DNA from: Pseudomonadota bacterium
Lineage (GTDB): Bacteria; Desulfobacterota; Desulfobulbia; Desulfobulbales; SURF-16
Assembly: GCA_018816555.1 (NCBI GenBank)
Contig: JAHIVT010000003.1
Location: 1 to 63,130 of the forward strand
Reading direction: 5' to 3'
DNA: 63,130 bases
The notes beneath the pieces are model-generated. The model had not been told where the DNA came from, ran no database searches, and saw only the letters and a list, made by a program, of their open reading frames with translations. Positions 40,023 through 57,853 of the stretch are shown piece after piece. The first letter of the stretch is position 1; each line of letters opens with the position of its first letter. Made by a program: the position numbers and the translations under genes.

Positions 40023-41932
40023 TGAAGCTGCCCCCCGCCGACAACCCTGAGGGGAACCGGCTTGGCAGTTTTTTTGGCCTTGTCACTGACATGCAGCCCG
40101 TTGTATTCGGGCACGATTGCCCGCAGGTGCCTGATAAGCTCCGGCACGTCACGATTGGTTGCTGCGCTGCGCAGCTCTTCAAGAACACTGGTCATACAGT
40201 GCCAGTCGCACTGGCGAGCGCGGGCCAACTGTAATTTAGGATGAGTCGTGCCCCGCAGATCTTCACTTTCATGAAAGATCTCTTCAAAAAGTTTTTCGCC
40301 GGGACGTAATCCTATATATTCAATTTTTATATCACGATGGGGCACCAAACCGGACAAACGGATCATCTGTTCGGCCAGATCTTTTATCAACACAGGGTCT
40401 CCCATTTCCATAACAAAGATCTCACCTCCCTTGCCCATGGAACCGGCCTGAAGAATGAGGCTCACCGACTCGGGAATGGTCATGAAGTAACGTTTTATTT
40501 CACGATGGGTGACAGTGACCGGCCCGCCGTTTTTGATCTGTTTTTCAAAAAGCGGCACCACCGATCCAGCTGAACCAAGCACATTCCCGAATCGGGTGGT
40601 GATAAACTTCGTCTGGGAACGGAGATCGAGATTCTGGCAGTAAATCTCAGCAATACGCTTGGTTGTACCCATGACATTTGCCGGATTAACCGCCTTGTCG
40701 GTTGACACCAGTACAAAACGATCGACATGGTAGCGGTCGGCGGCATCCGCCACCACCTTGGTGCCAAAGACATTGTTCTGCACCCCTTCCGCCGGGTTCA
40801 GCTCCAGCATGGGGACATGTTTATAGGCCGCTGCATGAAACACCACATCAGGTAAAAACTTGCGGAAAACCCAGTCAACCCTGTCGTAATTCTTCATATC
40901 ACCCAGCACATTAACAATTTTCAGACCAGGAAATGAGGAACGCAGTTCATTATCAATGGCATAGAGATTAAACTCGCCATGATCAAAAATAACAAGTCGC
41001 TCAGGATCCAGCTCAGCAACCTGTCGGCAAAGTTCCGAACCGATGGATCCGCCGCCACCTGTCACCAGCACCGTTTTATTATTCAGATATCCAGCAATGG
41101 CCTGCCGGTCCAGTTCAACGGTATCCCGGCCAAGCAGATCTTCGAGAGTCACCGGACGGAGCTGGTCTACTTCGACCTGATTACCGGACAACTCGACAAG
41201 CGATGGTAGAGTTTTACATTCAACACCGACTTTAGCGCACTCTGCAACAAGCCGCTTTACAGTGTCCCTTTTGGCAGAAGGGATAGCAAAAAGGACCAGA
41301 TCAACATCAAGTAATCTTACTATTTCACGAATATTTTCAGAACCACCATACACGCGGACGCCATGGATTTCTCGATCATGTTTTTTTCGATCATCATCGA
41401 CAAAAGCAACCGGTTGATACTCCTGCTTCCGTATAAGATCCCGCAGTAAAAGTTCCCCTGCATGACCTGCTCCAACGATCAGTGTTCGCCGCCCGCTCTC
41501 TTTATTCAACTTTAATCGCTGATCCTTAAACCAACGGTAGCAGAGACGAGGCCCAGTCAATCCAACAACCAGCAAAAGCGGACTTAACAGAAGTACTGAT
41601 CGAGGTATCCCTTCCAACCGAAAAAAAATTACCCCAACTAAAGTAACGACAAGTGCCCCCAATGTTACAGATTTCACGATACGGCTCAGATCTTTTAAGG
41701 AGGCAAATCTCCAAAGCCCTCTGTACAGACCAAAAAACCAGAAAACAATCCCATAGACCGGCAGTGAGAACAGAATTAACCACAAACAACCCTGAAAATA
41801 ATAAGCGGGGATCACCTGCAAATTAAAACGAAACCAATAGGCTGCAAATAATACTGTAGGCACCCAGAACAAGTCATGAAAAAATGCTGCCCAGCGGTTA
41901 AATAGTATTCTTCTCAAGTATTTTTGTAACAA
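40019..41932 (-). CDS. WbpM/CapD-type membrane nucleotide-sugar 4,6-dehydratase
   Basis: A 637-residue protein with four N-terminal membrane helices (about residues 10-120), a first nucleotide-binding region (VGAGHAGELLLRDL) and a C-terminal SDR domain from about residue 280 (VTGGGGSIGSELCRQ). The catalytic region has VSTDKAVNPANVMGTTKR, as in WbpM/PglF, in which Met replaces the usual Tyr. The enzyme is expected to make UDP-4-keto-6-deoxy-GlcNAc. With the WbpV-like reductase and WbpL-like transferase upstream it forms the module that makes and loads UDP-QuiNAc or UDP-FucNAc. Gene at the end of the polysaccharide locus, as in several O-antigen loci. Confidence 0.88.
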   Translation of the reverse strand: MLQKYLRRILFNRWAAFFHDLFWVPTVLFAAYWFRFNLQVIPAYYFQGCLWLILFSLPVYGIVFWFFGLYRGLWRFASLKDLSRIVKSVTLGALVVTLVGVIFFRLEGIPRSVLLLSPLLLVVGLTGPRLCYRWFKDQRLKLNKESGRRTLIVGAGHAGELLLRDLIRKQEYQPVAFVDDDRKKHDREIHGVRVYGGSENIREIVRLLDVDLVLFAIPSAKRDTVKRLVAECAKVGVECKTLPSLVELSGNQVEVDQLRPVTLEDLLGRDTVELDRQAIAGYLNNKTVLVTGGGGSIGSELCRQVAELDPERLVIFDHGEFNLYAIDNELRSSFPGLKIVNVLGDMKNYDRVDWVFRKFLPDVVFHAAAYKHVPMLELNPAEGVQNNVFGTKVVADAADRYHVDRFVLVSTDKAVNPANVMGTTKRIAEIYCQNLDLRSQTKFITTRFGNVLGSAGSVVPLFEKQIKNGGPVTVTHREIKRYFMTIPESVSLILQAGSMGKGGEIFVMEMGDPVLIKDLAEQMIRLSGLVPHRDIKIEYIGLRPGEKLFEEIFHESEDLRGTTHPKLQLARARQCDWHCMTSVLEELRSAATNRDVPELIRHLRAIVPEYNGLHVSDKAKKTAKPVPLRVVGGGQLH

Positions 41933-41980
41933 ATTCCCCCCTACAATTGGCGGGTTGAGTTTAAGTAACGAAAGTTTAGA

Positions 41981-42997
41981 TTAAATATTCCCCGTTCCTG
42001 ATCCAATCTTGACTGCGCACCACACGAGTGGCGTTAGGGCAACCAGTACTGCAACGAAAGCATATTCATTATATCTCGCAGCAATAAAAGCCAAAGGAAA
42101 CAACCAGAAAATATTAATGCCAAGAACCGCCAAGGTAACTTTTAAGTGTGAACCCCATCGGCGTGAAAGAATCTGATAAGCATGACTGCGATGCGCCAGA
42201 TAAAAAGGCGCGCCCCGGATAATTCTACATATAAGTGTAACTGTGGCATCGACAATAAATACAGCATACAGAATCAGCCAACTCCAAATATTGATAGAAG
42301 CTTTTTCCGAAGTAATAAGAGCAAAGATACCCAAAAGGAGCCCTAGAAAACCACTGCACCCGTCACCCATAAAAATTTTTGCTGGAGGCCAGTTCCATAC
42401 CAGAAATCCCAGTGTGGCCACACAAAGGCAAATTAGCCATGGGGCGTTGCTCGAAGCATCTTTATTCAACCACATTATGCTTGCGGCTCCTCCTGCGACA
42501 CAAATCGTTTCAACCGAGGCTATTCCATCTATTCCATCCATAAAATTAAATAAATTCAAAAACCAGATCAGCACAAAAGCAACAAGAACATATCCCCACC
42601 AGCAATTCAAAACCAAATTAATATTCAAAAATTGCAAGGAAGGAAGTTTCTTAATGAGGTAGAGTGCCAATACGACTGAAATGACATGAGACATAAAACG
42701 TATCTTTGCAGAAAGTTGGATGTTATCATCAATAAAACCTATTACAGCCACCAATCCTCCGGGTAGACAAACGGCCCAAACATGATTTTCCCTGACAATT
42801 CCTAAGAGAAAGAGAATCATAGTCCCACCCAGAAAACTCAATATGATGGCTAAACCACCTCCGCGTGGTGTGGGTAATGAATGGGAGCTTCGATGATTAG
42901 GGATATCAATTATTTTAGCCTTCAAAGTATAAGTACGGACAAGGCCTGTCAGGGTCAAGGAGGATAAGAATAAAACAAACAGCGCCCAGAAGCTCAT
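41981..42997 (-). CDS. WbpL/WecA-type undecaprenyl-phosphate glycosyl-1-phosphate transferase
   Basis: A 338-residue polytopic protein of the MraY/WecA family, with about ten membrane helices. The conserved acidic loop FNFMDGIDGIASVE and GDGCSGFLGLLLG are clear. It transfers an acetamido-sugar phosphate to undecaprenyl phosphate, beginning the repeat unit. Its start overlaps the stop of the upstream epimerase by four bases (ATGA). The likely donor is UDP-QuiNAc or UDP-FucNAc because of its neighbours (inference). Confidence 0.9.
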   Translation of the reverse strand: MSFWALFVLFLSSLTLTGLVRTYTLKAKIIDIPNHRSSHSLPTPRGGGLAIILSFLGGTMILFLLGIVRENHVWAVCLPGGLVAVIGFIDDNIQLSAKIRFMSHVISVVLALYLIKKLPSLQFLNINLVLNCWWGYVLVAFVLIWFLNLFNFMDGIDGIASVETICVAGGAASIMWLNKDASSNAPWLICLCVATLGFLVWNWPPAKIFMGDGCSGFLGLLLGIFALITSEKASINIWSWLILYAVFIVDATVTLICRIIRGAPFYLAHRSHAYQILSRRWGSHLKVTLAVLGINIFWLFPLAFIAARYNEYAFVAVLVALTPLVWCAVKIGSGTGNI

Positions 42998-43926
42998 GTC
43001 ACCGTACGCCTGATACCTTGCTCTAATGAAAAGGAAGGATGCCAGTCAAGTATCGCCTGAGTGCTGGAACAATCAACTTGAAGGTTATTGAGTAACTTGC
43101 GGACGTCCTTGGAATGGCCTGAGATTCTGCCCAGCAATTTCAATACGTTAACAGGTACTGATATCAATCGAAGAGTTTTACCTTGAACCTGGGCCAGCAG
43201 CCTAAGCAAATCAGGAGTTGAAATATCTTGTCCGTCAGCAATTAACAATGTCTGCCCTGCCGCCTTTGGATGACACAAACAAACCATGATGAGATCACAT
43301 AAATTTTCCAGATAAACAAGACTTCTCTTATTGCACACGGCACCAAGGGGCAAAGGAAAATCATTTCGCACTAGTTGAATTAAACGCTTAAAATTACCTG
43401 CCACGCCTTTCCCATAGACAAGGGGGGGGCGAATAATAACCAACTCTAAACCCGTTTGTCGGGCAATTTCCCCTAATCCCTTTTCCGCCCGAAATTTTGA
43501 AATAGCATATGGGTCCATTGGCGCTGGTTTGTCATCAGAAGTGAACGGTTTGTCAAATGTTTCCTCGCCATTGACCTTTATAGTGCTCAAGAAAATGAAA
43601 CGCCTCACTCCAGCATTTACTGCCTGTCTGGCCAAATTTAAAGTTCCTTCAACATTAATCCGAACAAATTCAGCTAAGGGTTCTGCGGAGTCATCTTTCA
43701 AGACATGAACCCTGGCTGCCAAGTGCACTACATGTGTTACATTTTTCAGGGCCTGTGACCAATCAGTTTTGTCATTGATATCGCCTACAACAACGCTGCT
43801 TTCTATTTGTGTAATTGTTGGCTGCCGACGCAGGGTCTGTCGAAAAACAATGTCTTTTTTACGCATCTGATTGCAGAGAGCACTGCCTACAAAACCATTT
43901 GCCCCGGTGACCAATACAATGCCCAT
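42994..43926 (-). CDS. WbpV-like NAD-dependent epimerase/reductase
   Basis: A 310-residue extended SDR with TGANGFVGSALCNQ at the N-terminus, AARVHVLKD, STIKVNGE and the catalytic Y-x3-K in YAISKFRAE. It resembles WbpV/WbpK-type 4-ketoreductases that complete UDP-QuiNAc or UDP-FucNAc. The ATGA overlap with the WbpL-like gene supports common translation. GalE-like UDP-glucose epimerase is a less likely alternative. Confidence 0.82.
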   Translation of the reverse strand: MGIVLVTGANGFVGSALCNQMRKKDIVFRQTLRRQPTITQIESSVVVGDINDKTDWSQALKNVTHVVHLAARVHVLKDDSAEPLAEFVRINVEGTLNLARQAVNAGVRRFIFLSTIKVNGEETFDKPFTSDDKPAPMDPYAISKFRAEKGLGEIARQTGLELVIIRPPLVYGKGVAGNFKRLIQLVRNDFPLPLGAVCNKRSLVYLENLCDLIMVCLCHPKAAGQTLLIADGQDISTPDLLRLLAQVQGKTLRLISVPVNVLKLLGRISGHSKDVRKLLNNLQVDCSSTQAILDWHPSFSLEQGIRRTVT

Positions 43927-43955
43927 TTCAATAATTATTGGACCTTATTATAATA

Positions 43956-45095
43956 TCAATTCGAAAAAAAAGAATCTTTCTGACAATTTTCCAGGACAGA
44001 TAAATAAAGAGCAATGTATTGTTGTCCCATTTTCTCTGGAGAGAAAAGTTCTTCAAACCTTATCCTGGCAGCTCTTCCCATGGAATGCACCAAAGCATCA
44101 TTCTCCGCAAGAGTATTCATAGCATTAGCAAGCCCCGTTGAGTCATTGGCCTGGACAACAAGCCCTGTGACATTATCTTTATTCACGTAACTGGTGCCTG
44201 TACCTAATTCAGTGGATATTAAAGGTTTTCCAAACATTGCTCCTTCAATTAAGGTCACACCAAATGCTTCGGCACGTTGGTGTGAGGGAAAAATAACAGC
44301 CCTGCATAAATTAAAAAGGACAACTTTATCCTCTTCAGATAAAAAGCCGGTTAAAATAACGTTTCCTATGTTTTGTTCCGCAATTTGTTTTCGCAATGCC
44401 CTCTCTGTGGGGCCACTACCCACAATGACTACATTATGTTTTGTTTTTCTGGCAGCTTCAAGCAGAATATGTAGTCCCTTATATTGACGAAGAACTCCTA
44501 CAAACAAGAAAAAATCGCTACCTAATTTGTTTTGCCAAAATCTTGTATTCGTCTCCTGTATGCGTGGATATTTTGTTTCATCAACCCCAAGAGGAATAAC
44601 AGTGGATTTTCCCTTATATGTTTTTAGATCCTCACTTGAATCAAGGTAATTGTTCGAGGTAGCCACGATCCGATCCATGGAAGTTAGAAACCGGTGCATA
44701 ATGGGTTTATAAAACGACTTCAGATAGCGGTATTTGATAACGTCAGAATGATAGGTCACAATTGATGGCTTGTTATGAGTCCTAAACAGATGCAACAAAT
44801 CAGCAAATGGCCAAGGAAAGTGATAGTGAAGCAGATCGGCACCTCTAGTAATTTCTCCAAATTCTCTATAGAGTTGCAGACTGACCGGAGATGATGGGAC
44901 ATCAAGAGAAACAGGAAACTGTACAACTCGGGTCCCTTCACGTTCAATGACGCGCTTCCCTTTACAATGACTAAGAGTAATTACGGTATTTTCTACTCCT
45001 TTTTTGGCAGTCTGCCGACAAATTTCGGCAATAACGCGTTCAAGACCACCATTGGTGTCCGGGAAATATGTCTTAAATATATGGAATACTTTAAT
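43956..45095 (-). CDS. GT4 glycosyltransferase with a non-standard start codon
   Basis: A GT-B fold glycosyltransferase of family 4. The C-terminal half has GVLRQYKGLHILLEA, VGSGPTERALRKQIAE and EAFGVTLIEGAMFGKPLI, the donor-site EX7E motif. The frame continues upstream through a normal GT4 N-terminus (HIFKTYFPDTNGGLERVI), but no ATG, GTG or TTG is available before it. The first usable codon after the in-frame TGA (45108-45110) is ATT at 45093-45095, preceded by AAAGG. It overlaps the stop of the GT2 gene. Length from ATT is 379 residues. Shorter starts, for example TTG at 44798, would delete the acceptor-binding domain. Confidence 0.8.
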   Translation of the reverse strand: MKVFHIFKTYFPDTNGGLERVIAEICRQTAKKGVENTVITLSHCKGKRVIEREGTRVVQFPVSLDVPSSPVSLQLYREFGEITRGADLLHYHFPWPFADLLHLFRTHNKPSIVTYHSDVIKYRYLKSFYKPIMHRFLTSMDRIVATSNNYLDSSEDLKTYKGKSTVIPLGVDETKYPRIQETNTRFWQNKLGSDFFLFVGVLRQYKGLHILLEAARKTKHNVVIVGSGPTERALRKQIAEQNIGNVILTGFLSEEDKVVLFNLCRAVIFPSHQRAEAFGVTLIEGAMFGKPLISTELGTGTSYVNKDNVTGLVVQANDSTGLANAMNTLAENDALVHSMGRAARIRFEELFSPEKMGQQYIALYLSVLENCQKDSFFSN

Positions 45096-45861
45096 TGCTC
45101 TTACCTTTCATAAAATTATGCAACAGAGAAGCAAAAGTCACCATTAACGGCCAGGCAATATACCATTTCAAAGGCACACTGCCATAATGTTTCCGAACGA
45201 CAGACATTGCCTCCCGATAATGATCAGCACGCCTCGATGATGTTTTTGTCTCAGCATGCATCCTGGTTGCCGCAACTTCCTTTGCAAGATAATTCAAGGG
45301 ACCACCATATTTATAAAGCTTCCACCAGAGATCGTAGTCAAGACACATGTGTAGACTTTCATCAAGACCTCCGACAGCGTCCCAAGCAGAGCGGCGAATC
45401 AAAGTAGCTGGCTGGGCAATAAAACAACGACGAGCCAGCATCCATTCCGAAAAGGAAGACGTAAAATAAGGCATGGCTTTTGTGCCATCTGGTTTCAACA
45501 GCCAACATTTACCGTAAACGGCTGGTGAATCTCGGTGTTTCTCCAATGATTCCAACAAAGCAGCCAGGGCACCAGGCATCAATAAATCATCGGAGTTAAG
45601 CCAACAGACATAGGGTGCTGAGCCAATGCTAACGGCCTCATTAATTGCGGATGCCTGGCCTTTATCAGTATGAGAACGCCACCAAGACAACCGCGGAGAC
45701 CATTGCTGCAAAATAGCAAGAGAACCGTCAGAAGACCCTCCATCTGCAACGAGTATTTCATGTGGAATATCCTGCAAGAATATAGAGTTAAGGGCTTTCT
45801 CCAAAAACTTACCCTGATTATAGGACGGTACGGCTACAGAGACAAGGGGATGTTCACTCAT
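45091..45861 (-). CDS. GT2 glycosyltransferase
   Basis: A 256-residue GT-A enzyme. VSVAVPSYNQGKFLEKAL, VADGGSSDGS and WLNSDD (DxD-equivalent) are clear, with MCLDYDLWWKL near residue 170 and a C-terminal amphipathic end. No membrane helices beyond a weak one at the C-terminus. It adds one sugar to the growing repeat unit; donor unknown. Its stop overlaps the proposed start of the GT4 gene. Confidence 0.88.
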   Translation of the reverse strand: MSEHPLVSVAVPSYNQGKFLEKALNSIFLQDIPHEILVADGGSSDGSLAILQQWSPRLSWWRSHTDKGQASAINEAVSIGSAPYVCWLNSDDLLMPGALAALLESLEKHRDSPAVYGKCWLLKPDGTKAMPYFTSSFSEWMLARRCFIAQPATLIRRSAWDAVGGLDESLHMCLDYDLWWKLYKYGGPLNYLAKEVAATRMHAETKTSSRRADHYREAMSVVRKHYGSVPLKWYIAWPLMVTFASLLHNFMKGKSN

Positions 45862-45871
45862 TAATTTTTCG

Positions 45872-46876
45872 TCAAGAAATTAAACAGATATTGGATGCCG
45901 GCAAATTTCCGGAATAAAATTTCTCGTGGGCAAGAAAATCCTTATAGGCCAGTCTGATACCCTCTGAGAGATCAATTTTTGGTAGCCAACCCAGATTTGA
46001 GAGGCGCGATACTTCCAATAATTTACGGGGGGTGCCATCAGGTTTACTAACATCCCATTGAACTTCGCCGGAGTATCCGACAATATCTTTCACGAGAAAG
46101 ACCAACTCCCTGATGGTTAAATCTTGTCCACAGCCGATGTTAATTAACGGAGGGATGGATGGAGTAAGTAATTTATCGAACCTATTGCCCGACATGGACA
46201 TAAGGAATATACATGCATCTGCCAAATCTTCACTGAAAAGGAATTCACGCCTCGGTGACCCAGTTCCCCAAGCTTCCACCTTCGCATCACCTGAAACTTT
46301 CGCCTCATGCATTTTTCGAATAAGAGCCGGTAGAACATGAGAGTTCTGCAAGTTGTAGTTATCACCTGGGCCGTAAAGATTTGTCGGCATAACAGCCAGA
46401 TAGCGGGTTCCATATTGGCGATTATATGCCCAGCACATCTCAATACCTGCTATTTTAGCTACAGCGTATGGACGATTAGTAGGCTCCAATGAACCTGTAA
46501 GCAAGTATTCTTCCTTTATGGGTTGCGGACATTCACGTGGATAAATACATGACGAACCAAGAAAAAGCAAACGCTTTACCCCAACCCGCCAGGAATGCCA
46601 GATAACGTTGTATTGAATAGCTATATTCTGCTGGATGAAATCAGCCGGATAATTTCTGTTAGCGAGGATTCCACCTACCTTCGCCGCAGCAAGGAAGATA
46701 TACTCAGGTTTTTCTTTGTCAAAAAAATCACCCACCCTTGCAAAGTCAGTAAGATCAAGCTCTCCATGTGTGCAGGTGATGATGTTTGTAAAGCCTTTTT
46801 CAGAAAGGCATCGCTTAAGTGCGGAGCCGACAAGACCTCTATGTCCAGCTAAATATATCTTGCTATCAGACTGCAT
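45872..46876 (-). CDS. fcl: GDP-L-fucose synthase
   Basis: Fcl (WcaG) converts GDP-4-keto-6-deoxymannose to GDP-L-fucose by epimerisation and reduction. About 334 residues from the ATG at 46876; a GTG nine bases upstream overlaps the gmd stop and is an alternative. The N-terminal GHRGLVGSAL, LGSSCIYPRE and the catalytic Y-x3-K in YAVAKIAGIEMC are diagnostic, as is NLYGPGDNY. It lies directly after gmd, as in many fucose loci. Confidence 0.93.
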   Translation of the reverse strand: MQSDSKIYLAGHRGLVGSALKRCLSEKGFTNIITCTHGELDLTDFARVGDFFDKEKPEYIFLAAAKVGGILANRNYPADFIQQNIAIQYNVIWHSWRVGVKRLLFLGSSCIYPRECPQPIKEEYLLTGSLEPTNRPYAVAKIAGIEMCWAYNRQYGTRYLAVMPTNLYGPGDNYNLQNSHVLPALIRKMHEAKVSGDAKVEAWGTGSPRREFLFSEDLADACIFLMSMSGNRFDKLLTPSIPPLINIGCGQDLTIRELVFLVKDIVGYSGEVQWDVSKPDGTPRKLLEVSRLSNLGWLPKIDLSEGIRLAYKDFLAHEKFYSGNLPASNICLIS

Positions 46877-46881
46877 TTCTA

Positions 46882-47967
46882 TCACTCATGGTAATCGTAA
46901 ACAGTAAAACCATGCCGTTTCACCAACTCATCTCGTTCGGCGGTTTTCAGATCCTCCCGAACCATCTCAGCTACTAATTTGCTGAATGAAATCCGAGGAG
47001 TCCACCCTAACCTCTCTCTTGCCTTAGTTGGGTCACCAAGCAATTCTTCAACCTCAGTCGGCCGGAAATACCTCGGATCGACCGAGACAATGCATCGATT
47101 TTCTTCATCAAATCCTTTCTCATGAACGCCATCTCCCTCCCAGTGGATCTGTATACCTAACTCCTTTGCGGCAACATTCACAAAATCCCGGACACTATGC
47201 TGCACGCCGGTGGCGATGACAAAATCTTCTGGTTTGTCCTGCTGAAGCATTAACCACTGCATCTCTACATAATCACGTGCATGCCCCCAGTCACGCTTGG
47301 CATTGAGATTTCCCAGATAAAGGGTATCCTGAAGACCGAGCCGAATGCGTGCAAGGCCTCTGGTAATTTTACGGGTAACAAATGTCTCACCACGTACCGG
47401 CGATTCATGGTTGAACAAAATACCATTACATGCATACATTCCATAAGCTTCACGATAATTAACGGTAATCCAATACGAATAAAGCTTCGCGACAGCGTAA
47501 GGTGACCTTGGATAAAAGGGGGTTGTCTCTTTCTGCGGTATTTCCTGCACAAGACCAAAGAGCTCCGATGTTGAAGCCTGGTAAAATCGAGTTTTCTTCT
47601 CCATTCCAAGAATACGAATAGCCTCCAGCAAACGCAAGGTACCCAGTGCATCTGAGTTAGCTGTATATTCAGGTTCCTCAAAAGAAACGGCGACATGGCT
47701 CTGGGCGGCAAGATTATATAATTCATCTGGTTGCACCTGTTGAACAATACGAACCAGACTACTGGAATCCGTCATATCTCCATAATGCAATATAAAATTG
47801 CGGTCAGAAACATGAGGGTCCTGATATAAATGATCTATCCTGTCGGTATTAAAAAGAGATGAACGGCGTTTTATTCCATGCACATGATACCCCTTTTTCA
47901 GCAGGAAATCAGCCAGATAGGCCCCATCTTGCCCTGTAATACCTGTTATCAATGCCTTTTTCTTCAT
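46882..47967 (-). CDS. gmd: GDP-mannose 4,6-dehydratase
   Basis: Gmd makes GDP-4-keto-6-deoxy-mannose, the precursor of GDP-fucose and GDP-rhamnose. From the ATG at 47967 ([15 protein letters not shown]) it is 361 residues. The [15 protein letters not shown] Rossmann site, [16 protein letters not shown] (NADP-binding), [21 protein letters not shown] (Tyr and Lys) and [17 protein letters not shown] motifs are nearly those of E. coli Gmd. It ends just before fcl. Confidence 0.95.
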
Positions 47968-48108
47968 AAATGAAAACATCCTATATTGGTCTTTTTTTGT
48001 CTATAATTCACATGTTAAGTGTCAATAACTTGATTGATGAGATGGGAACCAAATTTTAGAAATCCGGATGAATTATGTTATACTCCGAATAAACAAGATA
48101 GAATTGTG

Positions 48109-49047
48109 TTAAATCAATATCGACCGGGATATTTGCCCCTGAGGAGCAAAACATATTATTCCATTCTCCTCAACAGGATCAACATAACCAAATCTTTTAA
48201 GAATTTCACCCAACTCATTGTTTAGAAATTCTATTGTATCAGGTTGCAACTTGTTCAAGTAATTTCCTGGGGAAACTTGACGCACATGTGCGCCGGGATT
48301 TTCCTTCTCAGGACGAATATCATGTCGATCAGCAATTGCCGCGATGCTTTTCCGGGGCAAATCGATATTCAAATAAACCAGCATATCCGCCAGCCACTCC
48401 TGTTTGCGAAAAATGACATCTTCATATCTGTATACTTGTGTCTTATCAGATGATAAATTTGTTAAATAGCTTTCAAATACTTTCTTATATTGACTGGTAT
48501 GTTTGCATACCCATTTATTTATATCTGCTTCCTGCGCAAGTTCCCTATCTTTCAGAAGCAAATCACGCGCAGAACCGTGTTTGGGAGCTGGGTGGCTGAA
48601 AGCCTTCGAATAATACAGAGAAACGAGCATATCCCGTGGGTCACGAACCAATAAAATTATTTTCATTGCCTGAAGATTATTCTTGACCTGTTGCGGATAA
48701 TGGCGCCATCCCAAATAAGCATAACCATATGGAACGAAGACCGGTGCAATCGATTCCGTCAAATCAACCGGTCGAATACCGTTTTTAAATGAAGCAGTCG
48801 GCAGATCTATGACAACTACACCGCTGGCGACACAGACGTCAGACAGGAGTTTGTACAACAGAGTACTTCCTGATTTCGGGGGAGCAAAAGCGATAAAACT
48901 TTCATTCTGGCCCGGGGAGGGCATCATATATTCAAAGCTTTCACCTGTTGTGGCTTTTATGACAAAAGACTTTTCACCTTTAAGGAAACCGCTAACCTTT
49001 TTTTTTAACAGCAAACTTAATGACAAACATGTATTATTATTTTTCAC
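48109..49047 (-). CDS. Sulfotransferase
   Basis: A 312-residue cytosolic-type sulfotransferase fold. The PAPS 5'-phosphosulfate loop is in APPKSGSTLLYKLL, the 3'-phosphate site in LLVRDPRDMLVSLYYSKAF, and RYEDV lies further on. These are the conserved signatures of PAPS-dependent transferases. Within a fucose-containing polysaccharide locus it probably sulfates a sugar or a lipid carrier; the acceptor is unknown. PAPS supply is expected from sulfate metabolism elsewhere. Confidence 0.83.
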   Translation of the reverse strand: MKNNNTCLSLSLLLKKKVSGFLKGEKSFVIKATTGESFEYMMPSPGQNESFIAFAPPKSGSTLLYKLLSDVCVASGVVVIDLPTASFKNGIRPVDLTESIAPVFVPYGYAYLGWRHYPQQVKNNLQAMKIILLVRDPRDMLVSLYYSKAFSHPAPKHGSARDLLLKDRELAQEADINKWVCKHTSQYKKVFESYLTNLSSDKTQVYRYEDVIFRKQEWLADMLVYLNIDLPRKSIAAIADRHDIRPEKENPGAHVRQVSPGNYLNKLQPDTIEFLNNELGEILKRFGYVDPVEENGIICFAPQGQISRSILI

Positions 49048-49107
49048 AACAAAAAACTCCGCAATTTCTTTGATAAAGAAAGTATTCCGACAGCTATTTC
49101 GGAAAAA

Positions 49108-51333
49108 TCAGTTGTAATTAATCAAACCTATTTTCCACATATTTTCTAAAAAAAGAGATTTCAGCATGTATCCTGTAACTTTTCGTGAAATCAAAGCAGG
49201 TGTAGGATTATAACCAAGAAACTGCTTTCGCAGTCGTTTCATCTCCTGGAAACCAACATCCTCAATTAGGCTTGATGTTTTTTGGGCACTATGAATGCGA
49301 AAAATCCCCATAAATTTCGGAAGTCTAGCAATTTTGGCGCCAGCTTCGATGAATCTGAGAAGAAGATCCCAATCCATTGCAAAATTATAAGACTCATCTA
49401 CCCTAGCCCCTACTTTCTCCCATATTCTTTTTCTCCAGAACATTGTTTCTTGAGGAACATAATCAACCCATTTCAGTATTTCATCGGAATGAGGCGCCAG
49501 AACCCAACGTCCGATTTCCATATTATTCTCATCTACGAGTATTCTATGGCCATAAACAACATCGATATCTGGATTTTTTGCAAAAAAATTAGCAACGTAT
49601 GCCAATGTCCCGGGAACAATCTGGTCGTCAGAATTTAACCATGCCATAATTTCACCATTTGAGACTGCAAACCCTTTATTTATCGCATGGGTCTGACCTC
49701 TGTCCGGTTCACTTACCCACCAGGTGAGATGGTCTGAAAATTTCCTAATAACTTCAACTGAGTTATCGGATGATCCACCATCTGCTATCAGGATCTCAAG
49801 TTTAGGATAGCCCTCATCAACTAGACTTTTTATGGTCCCTTCTAGGAAAGTGGCCTGATTGAAGGAAGGAATTACGACCGAGATACGAGGTGAATGTATG
49901 GGTAATTTAAAGGCAGAAATATTAGACTGCTTAAAATGCAATGGTTTTCGTTTCTTTAAATTCCCCAGTGTACCTAGAGAAGGACGGAAAAAAGGACATA
50001 ATTTCAAAAATCTTCGCTGAAACCCGAAAAAACAGGCGGATGGTAAAATCCGAATACAATTTCTAAAAGACATACTAGCAATAACTGCTCCCTGAAGCCT
50101 CTCAATTTCCTGATTTTTCTTATTCACAATTTCCTGCAGCTTATCAATTTCTTGATCTTTCTTGGTAATATGGCTAGCAACTTTTTCTGCGAAATCCTTA
50201 AGTTTTTCTTCATATAAAAAATCTTCCTTTGGTGCAGTGAAACATTTCAGACGAGTCGCACTTTCTCTTAAACAGGGGAGTTCACCGTAATGTTTCCCCC
50301 AGGAAAGCAAGGCTGCTCCCGCTGAGGCCTCGCGTTTCGCGTTAACCGTAGACATAAAAACGGTATCAAACCCTGACTGTGCCATCAAATTTGCTCTCAG
50401 TTGCGGACTTTGAAAAAGTTCTCCAGCAAGATAAATTGAATCACTCAGCCCAGCAGCGGCCAACTTGTCAATAATTTCCTGAAGATGAGCTAAAAGTAAT
50501 GATTGAAGGCTTGCGGCGATACATCCTTTTGAAAATTTGGACATTTTATCACGGAAATCAGAAAAAAGTGTCTCATTTATCAAAAGTAGTGGTGACAGCA
50601 TTTCTGCCTGTGAGACATTCCACTTGATACCGGACGAAAGTTCACCAAAATCATTGACAAAAATATCATACAAAATATCGATGCACCGAGAATTAGGTTC
50701 GCTACCTGCTGCTAGTAACTCGACCTGAGGTCTTGCATTATAGGGATTGAGGTCAATCATCAAACTTACCGCGTTCCAAAAAGAAGAGAAACAGCAATGT
50801 GTTCCTTGATGAAAAAGCTCTAAGGCTTGGAGAGAACATCCTTTGCCCAAAAAAACTCCACCAAAAAACGGAGAATTCCACGTGGGCTGGTCATATACGA
50901 GTATAATACTGCCTTTTGTCTTTCCACTCGTAAAATATGAAAAGGCTGCGAGAGATTCAGGATACCCCCACCACTCATGGGGTAATGGAATTGACTGCAC
51001 AAAAGCCTGAAAAATGTCAGGGGAAAACAGGTTCGCATCAAAATTTTGAAAATGGTGGGTTACAGTATGAAACTGGCTTCTAATCTTACCTAACTGTTCC
51101 TCATTAGAAGATATAGTGTTTTTAAAAGGCCAAGCACAAGCAGAAAAATCATTTATAGACAGCTTGTCAATTAAGGGTTTCGGTGATCTGCCGTCGCTCT
51201 TTTTGCCAGTCAAATCTCCTAAGTGGTAAGAGATGATCTCTCTCCCGTCACGGGAAAGAATTGATATATTGGTATTCTGGCACCCGTCATAGAATACGCC
51301 TAAAATACTATCGCTATCTGATGAACACTGCAT
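49108..51333 (-). CDS. NodU-like domain fused to a GT2 glycosyltransferase
   Basis: A 741-residue two-part protein. Residues about 1-365 resemble the N-terminal ASKHA domain of NodU/CmcH carbamoyltransferases (GVFYDGCQNTNISIL near the start, IYLAGELFQSPQLRANLM and ASAGAALLSWGK near 320-355). A coiled coil follows (about 375-420, KKDQEIDKLQEIVNKKNQEIERLQ in parts). The rest is a GT2 (from about 480) with VVIPSFNQATFLEG, IADGGSSDNS and WLNSDDQ. The NodU C-terminal domain is missing, and the family HHxxHA metal motif seems replaced by HEWWGYPES. The first part may thus be regulatory or binding rather than catalytic. No frameshift is visible, so the fusion looks genuine. Confidence 0.72.
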   Translation of the reverse strand: MQCSSDSDSILGVFYDGCQNTNISILSRDGREIISYHLGDLTGKKSDGRSPKPLIDKLSINDFSACAWPFKNTISSNEEQLGKIRSQFHTVTHHFQNFDANLFSPDIFQAFVQSIPLPHEWWGYPESLAAFSYFTSGKTKGSIILVYDQPTWNSPFFGGVFLGKGCSLQALELFHQGTHCCFSSFWNAVSLMIDLNPYNARPQVELLAAGSEPNSRCIDILYDIFVNDFGELSSGIKWNVSQAEMLSPLLLINETLFSDFRDKMSKFSKGCIAASLQSLLLAHLQEIIDKLAAAGLSDSIYLAGELFQSPQLRANLMAQSGFDTVFMSTVNAKREASAGAALLSWGKHYGELPCLRESATRLKCFTAPKEDFLYEEKLKDFAEKVASHITKKDQEIDKLQEIVNKKNQEIERLQGAVIASMSFRNCIRILPSACFFGFQRRFLKLCPFFRPSLGTLGNLKKRKPLHFKQSNISAFKLPIHSPRISVVIPSFNQATFLEGTIKSLVDEGYPKLEILIADGGSSDNSVEVIRKFSDHLTWWVSEPDRGQTHAINKGFAVSNGEIMAWLNSDDQIVPGTLAYVANFFAKNPDIDVVYGHRILVDENNMEIGRWVLAPHSDEILKWVDYVPQETMFWRKRIWEKVGARVDESYNFAMDWDLLLRFIEAGAKIARLPKFMGIFRIHSAQKTSSLIEDVGFQEMKRLRKQFLGYNPTPALISRKVTGYMLKSLFLENMWKIGLINYN

Positions 51334-51346
51334 AAATATTAACCAA

Positions 51347-52372
51347 CTAACAGCTTTTATTTAACGAAACAGATTCAATGCAATCATGCCGTGTGGCAGC
51401 ATAGAATAAGAAACCTGTGAGACTAAATACGATAAAGGCGACATGGAAAACACTTAAAATCTCTCCTCCATTGGTGGAACCAAATATCGAAAACAATGAT
51501 TCAGCAAAAACTTCACCGGAACCTAATCCCCCCGGCGTCAAAGGTAACGCATTGAGAATCAGTGACACCGGGGCGAGAAAGAAATAATCAACTACATTAA
51601 GGCGGTATTCCCCTGCAGCTCTTCCGATAAAATACATCCCCAAAATTAAAGGAATCTGGCCGAGAAGTGAAACAAAAACAGCTTTGAATATCACATGTTT
51701 TTTTTCTCTGAAAAGAGCAAGGGCGGCAAATAACTTTTCGATAAAATGCCCACCAGGTATTCTTGCAATTACCCAGTTCATAAGTTTGGATAGTTTGGAT
51801 GATTTGATAAAACTGAAACAAAATGCAAAAAGAAAAATAAGAAGAGAAATTGCCAGGAAACACCATAAAGACCACAAATCGTTTTCCTGACCGCTTCTTG
51901 CAAATGATTGAATACCGAACACCAAGACCGCACTGGCGGCGATAGCAGCGGTAAGTAAAAGGGTAAACAGACCTAGAACACGATCCAGAACAATGCTCAT
52001 TGCCGCAGCTGTTTTATTATTACTAACCGATTTCACGATATAATATACCTTAACCATATCACCACTGATAGACCCCGGAATAATCGTGCTGAATGCATAA
52101 CCTATGAAGGTAAGGCGAGTAAGCATCATGATGCCAGGTCTTATATCAACAGCCTCCAGCAGAAGCTGCCAACGAAGAACAGAAAACACAACACTTATTA
52201 AAAAGAAAAATACCGCGACAGCGAACCAGGTAGAGGAAAGCATGTCGCATACTTTGGCAAAATTCAACATGTCAAAGTGAAGCATTACGGCAAAAATGCA
52301 ACAAATAACCAAAACACGCACAAGCATCCATAAAACACGACTCGTGAAACCTTTATCATTTTTCTTCATCAT
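51347..52372 (-). CDS. Flippase-like / LPG-synthase transmembrane domain protein
   Basis: A 341-residue membrane protein with about eight helices, of the lysylphosphatidylglycerol synthase TM-region family (UPF0104, AglD2). Motifs PGSISGDMVKVYYIVK and LPLTPGGLGSGEVFAESL are typical. Such proteins are often in glycan loci and have been proposed to move lipid-linked sugars, but their function is not settled. Twelve bases separate it from the NodU-GT2 gene. Confidence 0.82.
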   Translation of the reverse strand: MMKKNDKGFTSRVLWMLVRVLVICCIFAVMLHFDMLNFAKVCDMLSSTWFAVAVFFFLISVVFSVLRWQLLLEAVDIRPGIMMLTRLTFIGYAFSTIIPGSISGDMVKVYYIVKSVSNNKTAAAMSIVLDRVLGLFTLLLTAAIAASAVLVFGIQSFARSGQENDLWSLWCFLAISLLIFLFAFCFSFIKSSKLSKLMNWVIARIPGGHFIEKLFAALALFREKKHVIFKAVFVSLLGQIPLILGMYFIGRAAGEYRLNVVDYFFLAPVSLILNALPLTPGGLGSGEVFAESLFSIFGSTNGGEILSVFHVAFIVFSLTGFLFYAATRHDCIESVSLNKSC

Positions 52373-52395
52373 GTCATTTAACCACCAGCTTGTCT

Positions 52396-54303
52396 TTATC
52401 CAGGGAAATCGGTCAAAGCATCAAGTGAACGTAGCCATAGAATCAAGACAAGGAGAGAAAACAAAAGATATCCATAATCCTTTCTCTGCAAAAGATGATC
52501 CTGCCACAAATCCTGCACTGCTTGAGTATTTAGAACCCCTGAAGATAAGACACTTTTTGCAGAAAATGCATCTTCACACACCTCTCTCCATGATCCAACA
52601 AGCCAATAAGAGACTGGGGAGTTGAATCCCCTTTTGGGACGTCTTATGACAAAGGAAGGCAATATTTTTTCAGCTATGTTACGCAGGATAATCTTGCCCT
52701 TCAACTTCTTGAATTTCATATGAACAGGTAAACCAGTGCAGAATTCAACCAAGTGATGATCAAGAAAAGGACTGCGAACTTCAAGACCATGAGCCATACT
52801 CGCGCGATCGACTTTAACAAGAATATCATCAGGGAGCCAAGTCTTGTAATCCACATAAAGCGATCGGTCCAGCTCAGACAAGCCCTGAGATTCCTGGTAT
52901 GCTTTCCTGAACGGCGTTAAAGTACTTTCTGCCAGGAAAGCACTTGACATCCCTGTTAGCTGTTCCAGCCCCTGTGTATTTATTAAAGTTCTCCACCAAG
53001 CATGGGCATCACACTTATCAAGAGAGACGCCCCGCATGAACTGTTTCATTTTAAAAATTGTGCTCACCTTTCGCCGGCTGTCGGGAATACTCTCAACAAC
53101 TCTATGCAGGAGCTGCAATACCGGTTTAGGAATCTTTTGTATATATCCATGCAACTGGTCGGCTGCGTGAGTAACATAACCAGCAAGCAACTCATCACCA
53201 CCGTCCCCTGACAAAGCCACAGTGACATGATTTCTAGTCATTTTACTCAAAATATAGGTTGGAATCACAGAGGTGTCGGCAAATGGTTCATCCTGTCGGC
53301 TTATGATCTCTGCAAGGAGGTCTGGCTTCACACCGGCGACTATTTCATCATGATGCATACAACGAAGAAAACCGGCTACTTTTCTTGCCCACGGAGTTTC
53401 ATCGTAAGAAGATTCCTGAAACCCGATACTGAATGTACGCACAGTATCCAGATATTTACGCATATACGCCACAATGACACTTGAATCAAGTCCCCCGCTT
53501 AAAAATGCACCGAGAGGGACGTCACTTACCAGTCTTTTTTCTACAGCTCTGTCAAGCAGGTGGCCAAACTCTTCTTCCAGGTCAACGTCACTACGCCTAT
53601 TCGTTCTGTTTACAATCCATTTTTCTGCAAGATTCCAATAAGAATAAATACGGAAGGGCTCACCACGTTTCCATTTAAGAAAGGAACCTGGCGGCAATCG
53701 CTGAACGCCCTCAATAATTGCGGAATTCCCCAGAACGTAGCCAAAAGAAAGATAGCAGGCCATGGCTGTTTTATCCAATCTCTTAGAAACAAAGCCACTG
53801 GCCAACAGAGCGGTTAATTCAGAGGCAAAAACAATCGAATCATCAGTTAAAGATGCCCAGTACAGAGGTTTCTGACCGAGTCGGTCTCGGGCCAGAAATA
53901 ATGTCTCGTTCCGCTGATCCCAGACGGCAAAAGCAAACATGCCCTCAATACGATGGAGTACATCAATACCCCAATGCAAATAACCAAAAAGCAGTACTTC
54001 CGTATCAGAGACTGTTCTGAAATGATATCCCTCAACCTTAAGTTCCTTGCGCAACTGCCTAAAGTTAAAGATCTCACCATTGAATACGAGAGTCACCATA
54101 CCGGAAGGGTCAGTCATAGGTTGTTGGCCTGCCAGAAGATCCAAAACCTTAAGCCGACGATGAGTAAAACCAACCCCAAGAGATGTAAACTGCCCTTCCT
54201 CATCAGGTCCACGGTAGCGCAGTTTGCTTGCCATCCGGGCCAGGACAGAGGGAAGAACCTCTTTTCTATTATCCTGAAATACAATACCGCCAATACCGCA
54301 CAC
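52396..54303 (-). CDS. asnB: Asparagine synthase (glutamine-hydrolysing)-like amidotransferase
   Basis: A 635-residue class II amidotransferase. The GTG at 54303, preceded by GAGGG, is preferred over an upstream ATG because it leaves Cys2 (CGIGG) as the N-terminal nucleophile after Met removal. The glutaminase half has RGPDEEGQF and FNGEIFNF; the synthase half has LSGGLDSSV (PPi loop) and SGDGGDELLAGY. In a polysaccharide locus such enzymes often amidate a sugar or uronic acid instead of making free asparagine; this is inference from position. Confidence 0.88.
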   Translation of the reverse strand: MCGIGGIVFQDNRKEVLPSVLARMASKLRYRGPDEEGQFTSLGVGFTHRRLKVLDLLAGQQPMTDPSGMVTLVFNGEIFNFRQLRKELKVEGYHFRTVSDTEVLLFGYLHWGIDVLHRIEGMFAFAVWDQRNETLFLARDRLGQKPLYWASLTDDSIVFASELTALLASGFVSKRLDKTAMACYLSFGYVLGNSAIIEGVQRLPPGSFLKWKRGEPFRIYSYWNLAEKWIVNRTNRRSDVDLEEEFGHLLDRAVEKRLVSDVPLGAFLSGGLDSSVIVAYMRKYLDTVRTFSIGFQESSYDETPWARKVAGFLRCMHHDEIVAGVKPDLLAEIISRQDEPFADTSVIPTYILSKMTRNHVTVALSGDGGDELLAGYVTHAADQLHGYIQKIPKPVLQLLHRVVESIPDSRRKVSTIFKMKQFMRGVSLDKCDAHAWWRTLINTQGLEQLTGMSSAFLAESTLTPFRKAYQESQGLSELDRSLYVDYKTWLPDDILVKVDRASMAHGLEVRSPFLDHHLVEFCTGLPVHMKFKKLKGKIILRNIAEKILPSFVIRRPKRGFNSPVSYWLVGSWREVCEDAFSAKSVLSSGVLNTQAVQDLWQDHLLQRKDYGYLLFSLLVLILWLRSLDALTDFPG

Positions 54304-54313
54304 GCTTGGTCCC

Positions 54314-55063
54314 TCACTGTGTCCGGTTTGGGAGACGCTGAACAAGTGCCCAGATCGACTGCCCGAAAAGTCTGCGAGTCACAGGATTTAACAACCGGGA
54401 AACCGGTTGAACATAACGATCGAAAAAAAGAATCTGCTTGTTGATCATCGGCGTGGAAAGGTTGTCGGGACGCAGGAATTTCGTGTTAAGCCACCAACCC
54501 AAACCGCCAATAGGATTAAAATAAGACAACTTATGAATAATGAAATCCGTTTTCACGAGCAGGTTTTGAAGTGAAGATCGGTTATAACGCCTGACATGTC
54601 CGGCCAATTTATCCATGGGTCCATAAAGTGAATGATGGGCAGGCACGAGCAAAAAAAGATATCCTCCGGGTTTCAGACATTGATAAATATTTTGTAGAGC
54701 GTAAAGATCATTTTCTATATGTTCAAGCACATTCAGACACACAGCAGCATCGCAACTATCACTACCTATCCGTTCAACAAAACTGTTTCCAGCAACATCT
54801 TCCCTAAGAGGATGGATATTCGATGTCCATGATCTTGCCTCTTCAACAAATGTTGCTTCAATATCAACTGCGATGACATTATCAGCCTGTTTAGCAATCT
54901 CTCTGGTATACTGACCGTAGCCAAATCCTATTTCCAAAACTGTTCCATGTACAATAGGAAGGAGCAGGTCAAGAATCCACCTGTGATAATTCTCTGCATC
55001 TGGTAGAGCACTACTCATCGTTTCTTTACCTGCTGAAAATGCCATATCTTGCGGAGAAACCAT
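54314..55063 (-). CDS. SAM-dependent methyltransferase
   Basis: A class I methyltransferase of up to 249 residues. VLEIGFGYGQYTREIA is the SAM motif I, VIAVDIE motif II, and AAVCLNVLEHIENDLYALQ the following strand. The start is uncertain: ATG at 55063, or MSSALP at 55018, which has AGGT about ten bases upstream. The stop lies 10 bases before the asparagine-synthase-like gene. The target is unknown; glycan O-methylation is plausible. Confidence 0.82.
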   Translation of the reverse strand: MVSPQDMAFSAGKETMSSALPDAENYHRWILDLLLPIVHGTVLEIGFGYGQYTREIAKQADNVIAVDIEATFVEEARSWTSNIHPLREDVAGNSFVERIGSDSCDAAVCLNVLEHIENDLYALQNIYQCLKPGGYLFLLVPAHHSLYGPMDKLAGHVRRYNRSSLQNLLVKTDFIIHKLSYFNPIGGLGWWLNTKFLRPDNLSTPMINKQILFFDRYVQPVSRLLNPVTRRLFGQSIWALVQRLPNRTQ

Positions 55064-55198
55064 TTTATTTTACACTATTTATTAATTGTAATATGGGTCT
55101 ATAAGGTGGCGGAACGAAACATAACATGTCCTGTTTACAGAAATAATCGATTATATCCTGTTATTTGCTGATGCCTATTTCAATTTGATCCTGATCAG

Positions 55199-55966
55199 TT
55201 AATCAGATTCTTCAACTTTTTGCCATTGGCATAGAGCAAAGCATGTTGTGATTTTTCCGGAAAATGGAGCAAGCATTTTTTCTAAAATAAAAAGGCTGGG
55301 AGAATAAATCTTTTTAAATGATAAAGAAACACGAAAAATCAATGAATTAAGCACAAGAAGATAGGCGATATTTCCTGTATAAATCTCTTTTAGAACCCTA
55401 AATCTTGCTGAATTCGTCTTCTGCAAAGCACCAATATCAATTGCTTCTTCAGAATCAGTAAAAAGCGTGTCATGCCTGTACCAGAAACGACGTATCAGAT
55501 CAAAAAAAGAACCTCTGTGCGGCTCACCAAAACAAAAGAAACCGCCAGGTTTTAATATCCGACATATCTCCTTTGTGACGATTTCAAGGGACTGAGGCAC
55601 GTGGTGCAATCCACCAATGATTACAACACAGTCGAAGGTATTATCCTCAAAATCAGTCTGAAGAATCGATGAAGCAATTCCCCGGCATGATGGCCACCTC
55701 TGGGAAAATCGTGCCGCCGACTGAGGAGAAATATCCAATCCTGTAACATGTGCACCCTCTCCAAGAAGATAGGCTGTGGTCTGACCTGAACCACACATTG
55801 CTTCAAGAACATTCATACCCTTAAAATTTATCCCCGCGAAAAGTGGCGCATAAAGAAATTTCTGACGGTAAATCTGGCTGTACCGGTCATCATAGTGCGC
55901 CTCATAGTCACTTAAAATTTCATCAAAATGCTGATCCTGTGTCCTTTCAACAGCCATTACATTCAA
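55199..55966 (-). CDS. SAM-dependent methyltransferase
   Basis: A 255-residue class I methyltransferase with VLEAMCGSGQTTAYLL (motif I), VTGLDISP, and VVIIGGLHHVPQ (motif IV). The C-terminal third is rich in hydrophobic residues and may touch the membrane. It is flanked by gaps of about 130 and 50 bases. The acceptor is unknown. It is different in sequence from the other two methyltransferases in this locus. Confidence 0.82.
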   Translation of the reverse strand: MNVMAVERTQDQHFDEILSDYEAHYDDRYSQIYRQKFLYAPLFAGINFKGMNVLEAMCGSGQTTAYLLGEGAHVTGLDISPQSAARFSQRWPSCRGIASSILQTDFEDNTFDCVVIIGGLHHVPQSLEIVTKEICRILKPGGFFCFGEPHRGSFFDLIRRFWYRHDTLFTDSEEAIDIGALQKTNSARFRVLKEIYTGNIAYLLVLNSLIFRVSLSFKKIYSPSLFILEKMLAPFSGKITTCFALCQWQKVEESD

Positions 55967-56018
55967 ACCTTATTTTTTTATGTATATAGGTTGGCAAAAA
56001 ATAAATCTTTTTTTTGAC

Positions 56019-56927
56019 TCAACTGCCAGGGAATCTTACTTCGTTTCTGCTTGAAGAAATGCGTTCCATATGCGCCCGCCTCTGTTCTGCGATAAAACCA
56101 AGGCTCAGTATTATGACGGCCGTGAGAAAAAAAAGACTAGCGAGTAGAATCGGCAGATTTAACGATGGAACAAAAAGACTCAGAACCACAGCAATCAAAC
56201 CAAACGCGCCCACAAAACCCGATGCCAGAAGAAAAAGCTTTATGGGGTTGAACATCAATATTGCCATAATAAGAATCTGAGCGGTTCTCAGCGTGTCACG
56301 AAAATAACGGACGTGGCTGCTACCGACACGCTCATGATATTTTATGGGCCGGTAGTCCACAAAATAGTTTGTCAGCATCGCTATCACTGTAATAGTCGTA
56401 GTAAATGAAAAACCACCACAGAGAACGGGCGCAAATTTCATTATCATTTCACGGCGCATCACCCTAAGCCCACTGTTTATGTCAGGGATATTCTGTCCAA
56501 CAGTAAATTCTGCCAATGCCTTAAATGCTATTCTGGATATCCTTTTAATAAATGAACCATGATAGAATTTCCCCTGCCTGGCACCAACAAGCATATCCAA
56601 GCCGCGCACATTCATTTCTTCAACCATGGAGGGCAGTTCATCAACCGGATATGTCCCATCTGCATCCGTTATTGCAACAATTGGAGAATCAGCGTTCGCT
56701 ATGCCTGTAAGCAGAGCATTGCCGTATCCAATATTTCTTGGATGACGCAAAACAGTGGCACCTGCACGTTCTGCCTGCTCCCCAGTATTATCTGATGAAC
56801 CGTCATCGACAACAATAATCCCACAGGTAATGGGTGTATTTTCAAAGGAGGTTCGAATCTTTCTGATTGTGTCCCCTATGGCCCCGGCTTCATTATAGGC
56901 GGGCATGACAACAGTTACTTGAGCCAT
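56019..56927 (-). CDS. Membrane-bound GT2 of the DPM1/GtrB type
   Basis: A 302-residue enzyme: a GT2 domain (VTVVMPAYNEAGAIGDTI, IIVVDDGSSDNTGE, ITDADGTYP) followed by two C-terminal membrane helices (about residues 230-255 and 262-285). This is the layout of polyprenyl-phosphate sugar synthases (GtrB, DPM1), which load a sugar onto undecaprenyl phosphate. The acceptor sugar is then used by a membrane glycosyltransferase such as the 713-residue protein encoded at 57889-60030. Confidence 0.87.
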   Translation of the reverse strand: MAQVTVVMPAYNEAGAIGDTIRKIRTSFENTPITCGIIVVDDGSSDNTGEQAERAGATVLRHPRNIGYGNALLTGIANADSPIVAITDADGTYPVDELPSMVEEMNVRGLDMLVGARQGKFYHGSFIKRISRIAFKALAEFTVGQNIPDINSGLRVMRREMIMKFAPVLCGGFSFTTTITVIAMLTNYFVDYRPIKYHERVGSSHVRYFRDTLRTAQILIMAILMFNPIKLFLLASGFVGAFGLIAVVLSLFVPSLNLPILLASLFFLTAVIILSLGFIAEQRRAHMERISSSRNEVRFPGS

Positions 56928-57043
56928 TATCCTTTCCCTTGAGTAAACTCATAACATATTAAAAATTATTAATCTCAAACAAAACAATAGCATCCGTAGT
57001 GAGGGTTCAACTAGCAGTAGGGAAATCGAGAATATAGTATTAA

Positions 57044-57853
57044 CTAAGGTTGTTTTGGCTTGATGCCTGTTGCCGACCAACTGTATCCATGCCGATGATA
57101 AAGCTTTATGTCAGCAAATCCACTCTCTTCCAAAAGGGCAACAACCTCCTGTCTACTATAATATTTAGCATAAGCAGGATTAAGTTGGTCATATATGGTA
57201 AGTATTTGATTTGATACGCTGAGTCGGTCCAGATGAGAGAGCATATAATTTTTCATTGGTAATGGGATGATTTTACATGCTGAAATATAAGCAAAAAGAA
57301 TTGGATACATAATCCAGCATAACGCTACTAAAAAATAGTGCGGAAGTTTTGTTGTAAGCATGCGAAGTGGTTGGAACACTGCAAGATAAAGCCTATTACC
57401 CTCTTTTCCATATAACCAGACCGCAATTTTACCGCCTGGACGTAATGCTTGGAAAGCCGCATCGACTACCGGACGGGGCTCAGGTATATGATGCAATACC
57501 CCGGCCGAAAAAATAAAATCCAGATCTTCAAAGGGAATATTCTCCCCTGTAACATTCAAACAAGTTACTCTATCTTGTCGATTTGCAACATTCTTTTTTA
57601 AAACATTAAAGGCATTGGAAGGTTCAATTGCGACAACATGTCGGCACCCTACATCTAAAAGCATATTCACTATGCGACCGGTACCACTCCCTATATCAGC
57701 GACTCGTAAATCTTTTAGTTCACTGGGTGGTATCAGTGAAGAGAAAAGATCCTGAAATAATTCTGATGATCCGTAATATCCTTCATTTTTTTGAAAATTG
57801 TTCCATTGATCACCAAAATCACTTATTGTCTTTTTTTTTAAAAGATCAGTCAT
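57044..57853 (-). CDS. SAM-dependent methyltransferase
   Basis: A 269-residue methyltransferase with VADIGSGTGRIVNMLL (motif I), VVAIEPS and FIFSAGVLHHIPEP. A hydrophobic stretch in the middle (about residues 165-190) could be a membrane association. It follows the large membrane protein gene after about 35 bases on the same strand. Acceptor unknown. Confidence 0.83.
   Translation of the reverse strand: MTDLLKKKTISDFGDQWNNFQKNEGYYGSSELFQDLFSSLIPPSELKDLRVADIGSGTGRIVNMLLDVGCRHVVAIEPSNAFNVLKKNVANRQDRVTCLNVTGENIPFEDLDFIFSAGVLHHIPEPRPVVDAAFQALRPGGKIAVWLYGKEGNRLYLAVFQPLRMLTTKLPHYFLVALCWIMYPILFAYISACKIIPLPMKNYMLSHLDRLSVSNQILTIYDQLNPAYAKYYSRQEVVALLEESGFADIKLYHRHGYSWSATGIKPKQP

Follow-up and report, generated by a model that had tools for sequence, protein, structure and literature searches.

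Organization of the fusion gene and its cluster

The window analyzed here, the whole 63,130-nucleotide stretch of DNA, contains a polysaccharide cluster in which one long gene joins a degenerate carbamoyltransferase-like domain to a GT2 glycosyltransferase. The following features were assigned, with residue numbers referring to the fusion protein:

40019..57853, minus strand: polysaccharide cluster enclosing the fusion gene
49108..51333, minus strand: whole fusion gene, 741 aa, a single open frame from ATG to TAA
50284..51312, minus strand: degenerate Kae1-like (NodU/TobZ N-terminal) carbamoyltransferase domain, about aa 8-350, predicted from homology to a protein of G282 and an AlphaFold2 (AF2) model
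50947..50964, minus strand: lost HHxxHA iron motif, aa 124-129, reading YPESLA (H124Y, H125P, H128L; H in 21/21 homologues)
50890..50892, minus strand: D148, the sole iron-ligand position kept (GdmN D156), from the homologue alignment
50419..50424, minus strand: GG motif with its second Gly lost, G304-E305 (G at 305 in 21/21 homologues)
50329..50337, minus strand: fourth iron ligand and following Gly lost, D333K and G335E (GdmN D333), from the alignment
50086..50226, minus strand: coiled coil, about aa 370-416, from a heptad scan, with weak Pfam coiled-coil matches at aa 359-422
50071..50073, minus strand: in-frame ATG (Met421), a possible internal start with GGGAG about 14 nt upstream, which is not evidence of use
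49108..50013, minus strand: complete GT2, about aa 441-741, with DGGSSD, LNSDD, and MDWDLLLR present

The cluster encodes a CapD-type dehydratase, a WecA-like initiating transferase, an SDR, a GT4, a GT2, fcl, gmd, a sulfotransferase, the fusion protein, a flippase-like protein, an asparagine-synthase-like amidotransferase, methyltransferases, and again a GT2. The stop codon of the flippase-like gene (51347) lies 13 bp upstream of the fusion gene and the start of the sulfotransferase gene (49047) 60 bp downstream, spacing that places the fusion gene in one same-strand gene run. The same cluster includes a 713-aa protein (57889-60030, minus strand) with no Pfam or NCBIfam match, and an IS1380-family transposase (60522-61622, minus strand) is found at its upstream edge.

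The initial annotation described one continuous frame, and no internal stop interrupts it. The 365 codons of the N-terminal half are open with normal codon usage, and synonymous codon choice across the N-terminal domain matches that of the neighboring genes in this frame but not in the others. A neutral-drift control predicted about five in-frame stops at 0.1 substitution per site, although it ignores that the downstream GT2 must stay in frame; translation of the GT2 therefore accounts in part for the open N-terminal frame. An assembly error could in principle have joined two genes, as the fusion occurs in one genome only, a draft assembly of 183 contigs. However, both sides of the junction fall within a single 63-kb contig, coding statistics continue across it, and G282 encodes a related fusion in which an intact carbamoyltransferase is joined to a coiled coil and a glycosyltransferase, all of which makes such an error highly improbable.

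The N-terminal domain resembles half of a carbamoyltransferase

The protein had initially been read as a NodU-type N-terminal domain without the C-terminal half of the carbamoyltransferase, followed by a coiled coil and a complete GT2. The family libraries were silent on the first of these parts: Pfam returned no match to the N-terminal domain even up to E 10, so that Carbam_trans_N (PF02543) is not assigned, and NCBIfam and PDB sequence searches with this domain also returned none. The YrdC-like C-terminal domain (PF16861) is absent from the fusion protein, as the annotation had proposed. A weak PHROG match to phrog_7948 (function unknown; E 0.001) spans aa 70-119.

We found no relative of the N-terminal domain at E 0.001 in 258 genomes of the order (the same set as for the class), which gave sub-threshold matches only, and a single relative in 395 genomes drawn from the phylum (G282; E 5.7e-20). 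No relatives beyond G282 were found in plasmids, phages, viral contigs, and the genome_contigs set. Ten candidates (L002, L004-L011, and L044) look like chance-level matches and were rejected. The G282 protein aligns with aa 11-342 at 24% identity (BLASTP E 4e-21) and scores 85 bits, compared with at most 33 bits for the next best carbamoyltransferase tested and 38 SD above shuffled queries (z 38). Judged by these alignments, the homology of the domain to carbamoyltransferases is real, and it rests on one distant relative. The profile search of the 395 phylum genomes revealed no second long fusion, and a second protein with the same degenerate fusion was not found in the sets searched.

A Kae1-like ASKHA fold is predicted for the N-terminal domain. 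An AF2 model built from an alignment of 21 homologues (the G282 protein and 20 carbamoyltransferases from viral contigs) reached pLDDT 78.6, with a confident core of 149 residues above pLDDT 90. This model depends on the homology claim because the alignment consists of intact enzymes; the single-sequence AF2 model has pLDDT 35. The closest solved structures are GdmN, NovN, TobZ, and VtdB (Z 26.6-28.4 over 303-319 residues), and TsaD/Kae1 proteins match at lower scores (Z 16-19). A predicted structure lacking an ASKHA fold at residues 1-365 had been named in advance as one result that would overturn the initial annotation; the ASKHA fold was obtained (pTM 0.82). In a carbamoyltransferase tree, which gave no placement for the fusion protein, it sits on a very long branch (5.2).

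The metal site and the catalytic base are lost

In GdmN, the iron ligands are H133, H137, D156, and D333, and H27 serves as the general base (PMC9633730). The residues aligned with these ligands in the fusion protein are Y124, L128, D148, and K333, so three of the four are replaced, and the suspected loss of the HHxxHA motif and its metal site is upheld. The conserved catalytic-base His in the N-terminal HDS motif (H14 in TobZ) is Q19 here and His in 21/21 homologues. Sixteen of the 18 near-invariant positions in the 21-homologue alignment are replaced (H19Q, D20N, E39G, H124Y, H125P, H128L, G151T, T190S, M205E, G211S, E281L, G305E, N309S, N313R, D333K, and G335E), leaving P197 and A208. Both conserved Asn residues (309 and 313) and the D-x-G motif (333 and 335) are among the replaced positions, and the canonical nucleotide site has been taken apart too. 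Positions that stay invariant with the fusion protein included are K45, S136, D148, A273, Q277, G304, and G339.

The YrdC-like half makes carbamoyl-AMP. With that half absent, and with replacements at three of the four iron ligands, the base His, and 16 of the 18 positions, carbamoyl transfer by the fusion protein is very unlikely. An N-terminal domain still active with a different metal site, and with TsaC supplying the YrdC function in trans, would have a parallel in t6A synthesis, which divides the Kae1 and YrdC halves between two proteins (PMC9654439), but we give this reading scarcely any credence with the metal ligands and the catalytic-base His replaced.

The protein shares with class III O-carbamoyltransferases (TobZ, GdmN, NovN, NodU/NolO, and CmcH) the predicted Kae1-like ASKHA fold, over about aa 8-365, and the residues D148, A273, Q277, G304, and G339. 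It differs from them in having no YrdC-like domain and no PF02543 match, and in the loss of the catalytic-base His and of three of the four iron ligands. The fusion protein descends from this class yet should not be filed within it, since these four defining features fail.

The initial annotation proposed that the domain either scaffolds a glycosyltransferase or senses carbamoyl-type ligands. Scaffolding is the better supported of the two, while carbamoyl binding or sensing is disfavored because the base His, three of the four ligands, the second Gly of the GG motif (now Glu), both Asn residues, and the D-x-G motif are replaced. More broadly, the domain might still bind a small ligand (a nucleotide, carbamoyl-AMP, or a carbamoylated glycan) and use it for sensing or targeting: the fold and D148 are kept, and TsaB, also an ASKHA paralogue, can hold a nucleotide in an atypical site (PMC9654439). 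This is improbable, however, with the canonical site taken apart by the GG-to-GE change, N309S, N313R, D333K, and H19Q, and the organism's own genome has no detected NodU-type carbamoyltransferase to make a carbamoylated glycan. A search of this 97%-complete genome for another NodU-type enzyme returned TsaD as its sole, distant match.

The coiled coil leads into an apparently working GT2

A heptad scan places the coiled-coil peak at aa 376-414, where most a/d positions are hydrophobic. The GT2 that follows is unambiguous, matching PF00535 at aa 485-604 (E 2e-23; 83.6 bits, cut-off 23.3), and both parts agree with the initial annotation. The donor, metal, and catalytic-Asp-region motifs (DGGSSD, LNSDD, and MDWDLLLR) align with those of orthologues, and by these motifs the GT2 is apparently working.

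Orthologues encoded as standalone genes, 320-331 aa long and sharing 43-53% identity over about aa 441-741, are present in at least five genomes of the order (G201, G122, G125, G136, and G138), and four of them lie a few kb from gmd and fcl. They have neither the carbamoyltransferase domain nor the coiled coil, in contrast to the fusion. Two separate genes in a close relative, another result named as able to overturn the initial annotation, were seen only by half: the GT2 does stand alone in relatives, but the N-terminal domain was never found as a separate neighbor. Near the orthologue in G201, an 814-aa protein (L077:11090-13534; G201:C10) has a sulfotransferase domain and a coiled coil, and its C-terminal half has no Pfam match.

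The orthologues begin at about Met421, and an internal start with a second product is therefore possible. These observations bear on whether the N-terminal domain is a functionless vestige, half a carbamoyltransferase that became stranded ahead of the GT2 through fusion or recombination and is now drifting, with the GT2 perhaps translated from the ATG at codon 421. The single occurrence of the fusion, the standalone orthologues in the same order, the GGGAG ahead of an ATG near the orthologue starts, and the very long branch all fit such a history. Against it, the N-terminal codons are open and used normally, stops would be expected after drift of 0.1-0.2 per site (though the GT2 would on its own require an open frame), and the predicted core is confident. 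We consider a vestige unlikely, though well short of negligible.

Related fusions and half-length carbamoyltransferases

The G282 protein (JAFDED010000023.1, a Deltaproteobacteria MAG; L045:8371-12558) is 1,395 aa long and comprises Carbam_trans_N and Carbam_trans_C, both intact, together with a coiled-coil-like stretch and a GT4. It is the nearest relative of the N-terminal domain, it has the same part order (carbamoyltransferase, coiled coil, glycosyltransferase), and its gene likewise sits in a polysaccharide cluster that includes an asparagine-synthase-like gene. Unlike the fusion studied here, it has both carbamoyltransferase halves intact, keeps the HHTAHA motif, and ends in a GT4 instead of a GT2. 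The fusion architecture thus has a catalytic cousin in G282. It had been put forward as not known from earlier descriptions. We found no description of a carbamoyltransferase-glycosyltransferase fusion in a literature search mostly confined to non-subscription papers, but the G282 protein means that the architecture is not wholly isolated.

Standalone proteins of 338-356 aa with only the NodU-type N-terminal domain occur in the same order, in G047 (L012), G051 (L013), G128 (L179:4450-5466), and G130 (L180:4375-5406). We compared the iron ligands of the NodU-type proteins, 35 from the order plus that of G282, and the complete N-only proteins (n = 4). All four ligands are kept in 36/36 proteins with a C-terminal domain, and at least two are lost in 4/4 complete proteins without one. 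The four N-only proteins form one clade (support 99/100) nested among ordinary full-length enzymes, and they therefore count as one loss, not as independent losses. The clade is under purifying selection (G047/G051 pair: dN 0.31, dS 1.19, dN/dS about 0.26), and its genes adjoin polysaccharide genes (flippase, Wzy, SxtJ-like, and GT2). No full-length NodU-type enzyme was detected at E 0.001 in G130, which is 98% complete, so the N-only proteins are not simply partners of such an enzyme.

Like the fusion protein, the N-only clade is missing the C-terminal domain and has lost metal ligands; it differs in being unfused, in matching PF02543 (G047, the one tested), and in having weak similarity to the fusion. 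Half-enzymes may be a recurrent theme, given that a separate N-only clade under purifying selection has also lost metal ligands.

Proposed role of the N-terminal domain

The fusion protein would be a glycosyltransferase of a surface-polysaccharide cluster, with the C-terminal GT2 as its catalytic part. Its N-terminal domain corresponds to a class III O-carbamoyltransferase reduced to its Kae1-like half and stripped of the YrdC-like half, iron site, and catalytic base, an old catalytic fold probably kept as a non-catalytic handle. We favor, with some reserve, the view that this domain is a pseudoenzyme serving as a scaffold or oligomerization module. Together with the coiled coil, it may act as a protein-protein module that oligomerizes the enzyme or docks pathway enzymes, by analogy with TsaB and TsaD. 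TsaB, the partner of TsaD, is a truncated ASKHA paralogue and has no usual nucleotide and metal site (PMC9654439). The likeness to the fusion's N-terminal domain is that of a truncated ASKHA protein without the canonical metal site, but TsaB belongs to another lineage, is a separate gene, and pairs with a catalytic paralogue, whereas no NodU-type one was found in the genome of the fusion. The proximity of the fusion gene and several standalone orthologues to gmd and fcl suggests that the GT2 may use GDP-fucose or another GDP-deoxyhexose as its donor.

A metal enzyme with a multi-step reaction has apparently lent its fold to a glycosyltransferase as a non-catalytic part, one that domain libraries miss. 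The fusion and the standalone metal-dead clade suggest that half-carbamoyltransferases are retained for another purpose. Such genes should not be annotated as carbamoyltransferases, nor should carbamoylated sugars be predicted from them. A more tentative extension is that half-carbamoyltransferases with a dismantled metal site might be recurrent, selected non-catalytic ASKHA modules that organize the glycan enzymes of polysaccharide clusters, standalone or fused to a glycosyltransferase, as TsaB does for TsaD.

Other composite proteins

Two further multidomain proteins were noted. A 1,291-aa protein (L171:2506-6381; G087:C8) consists of an intact carbamoyltransferase followed by a methyltransferase-like C-terminal part, and a 1,121-aa protein in the window (17189-20554, plus strand) joins polysaccharide deacetylase and GT2 domains.
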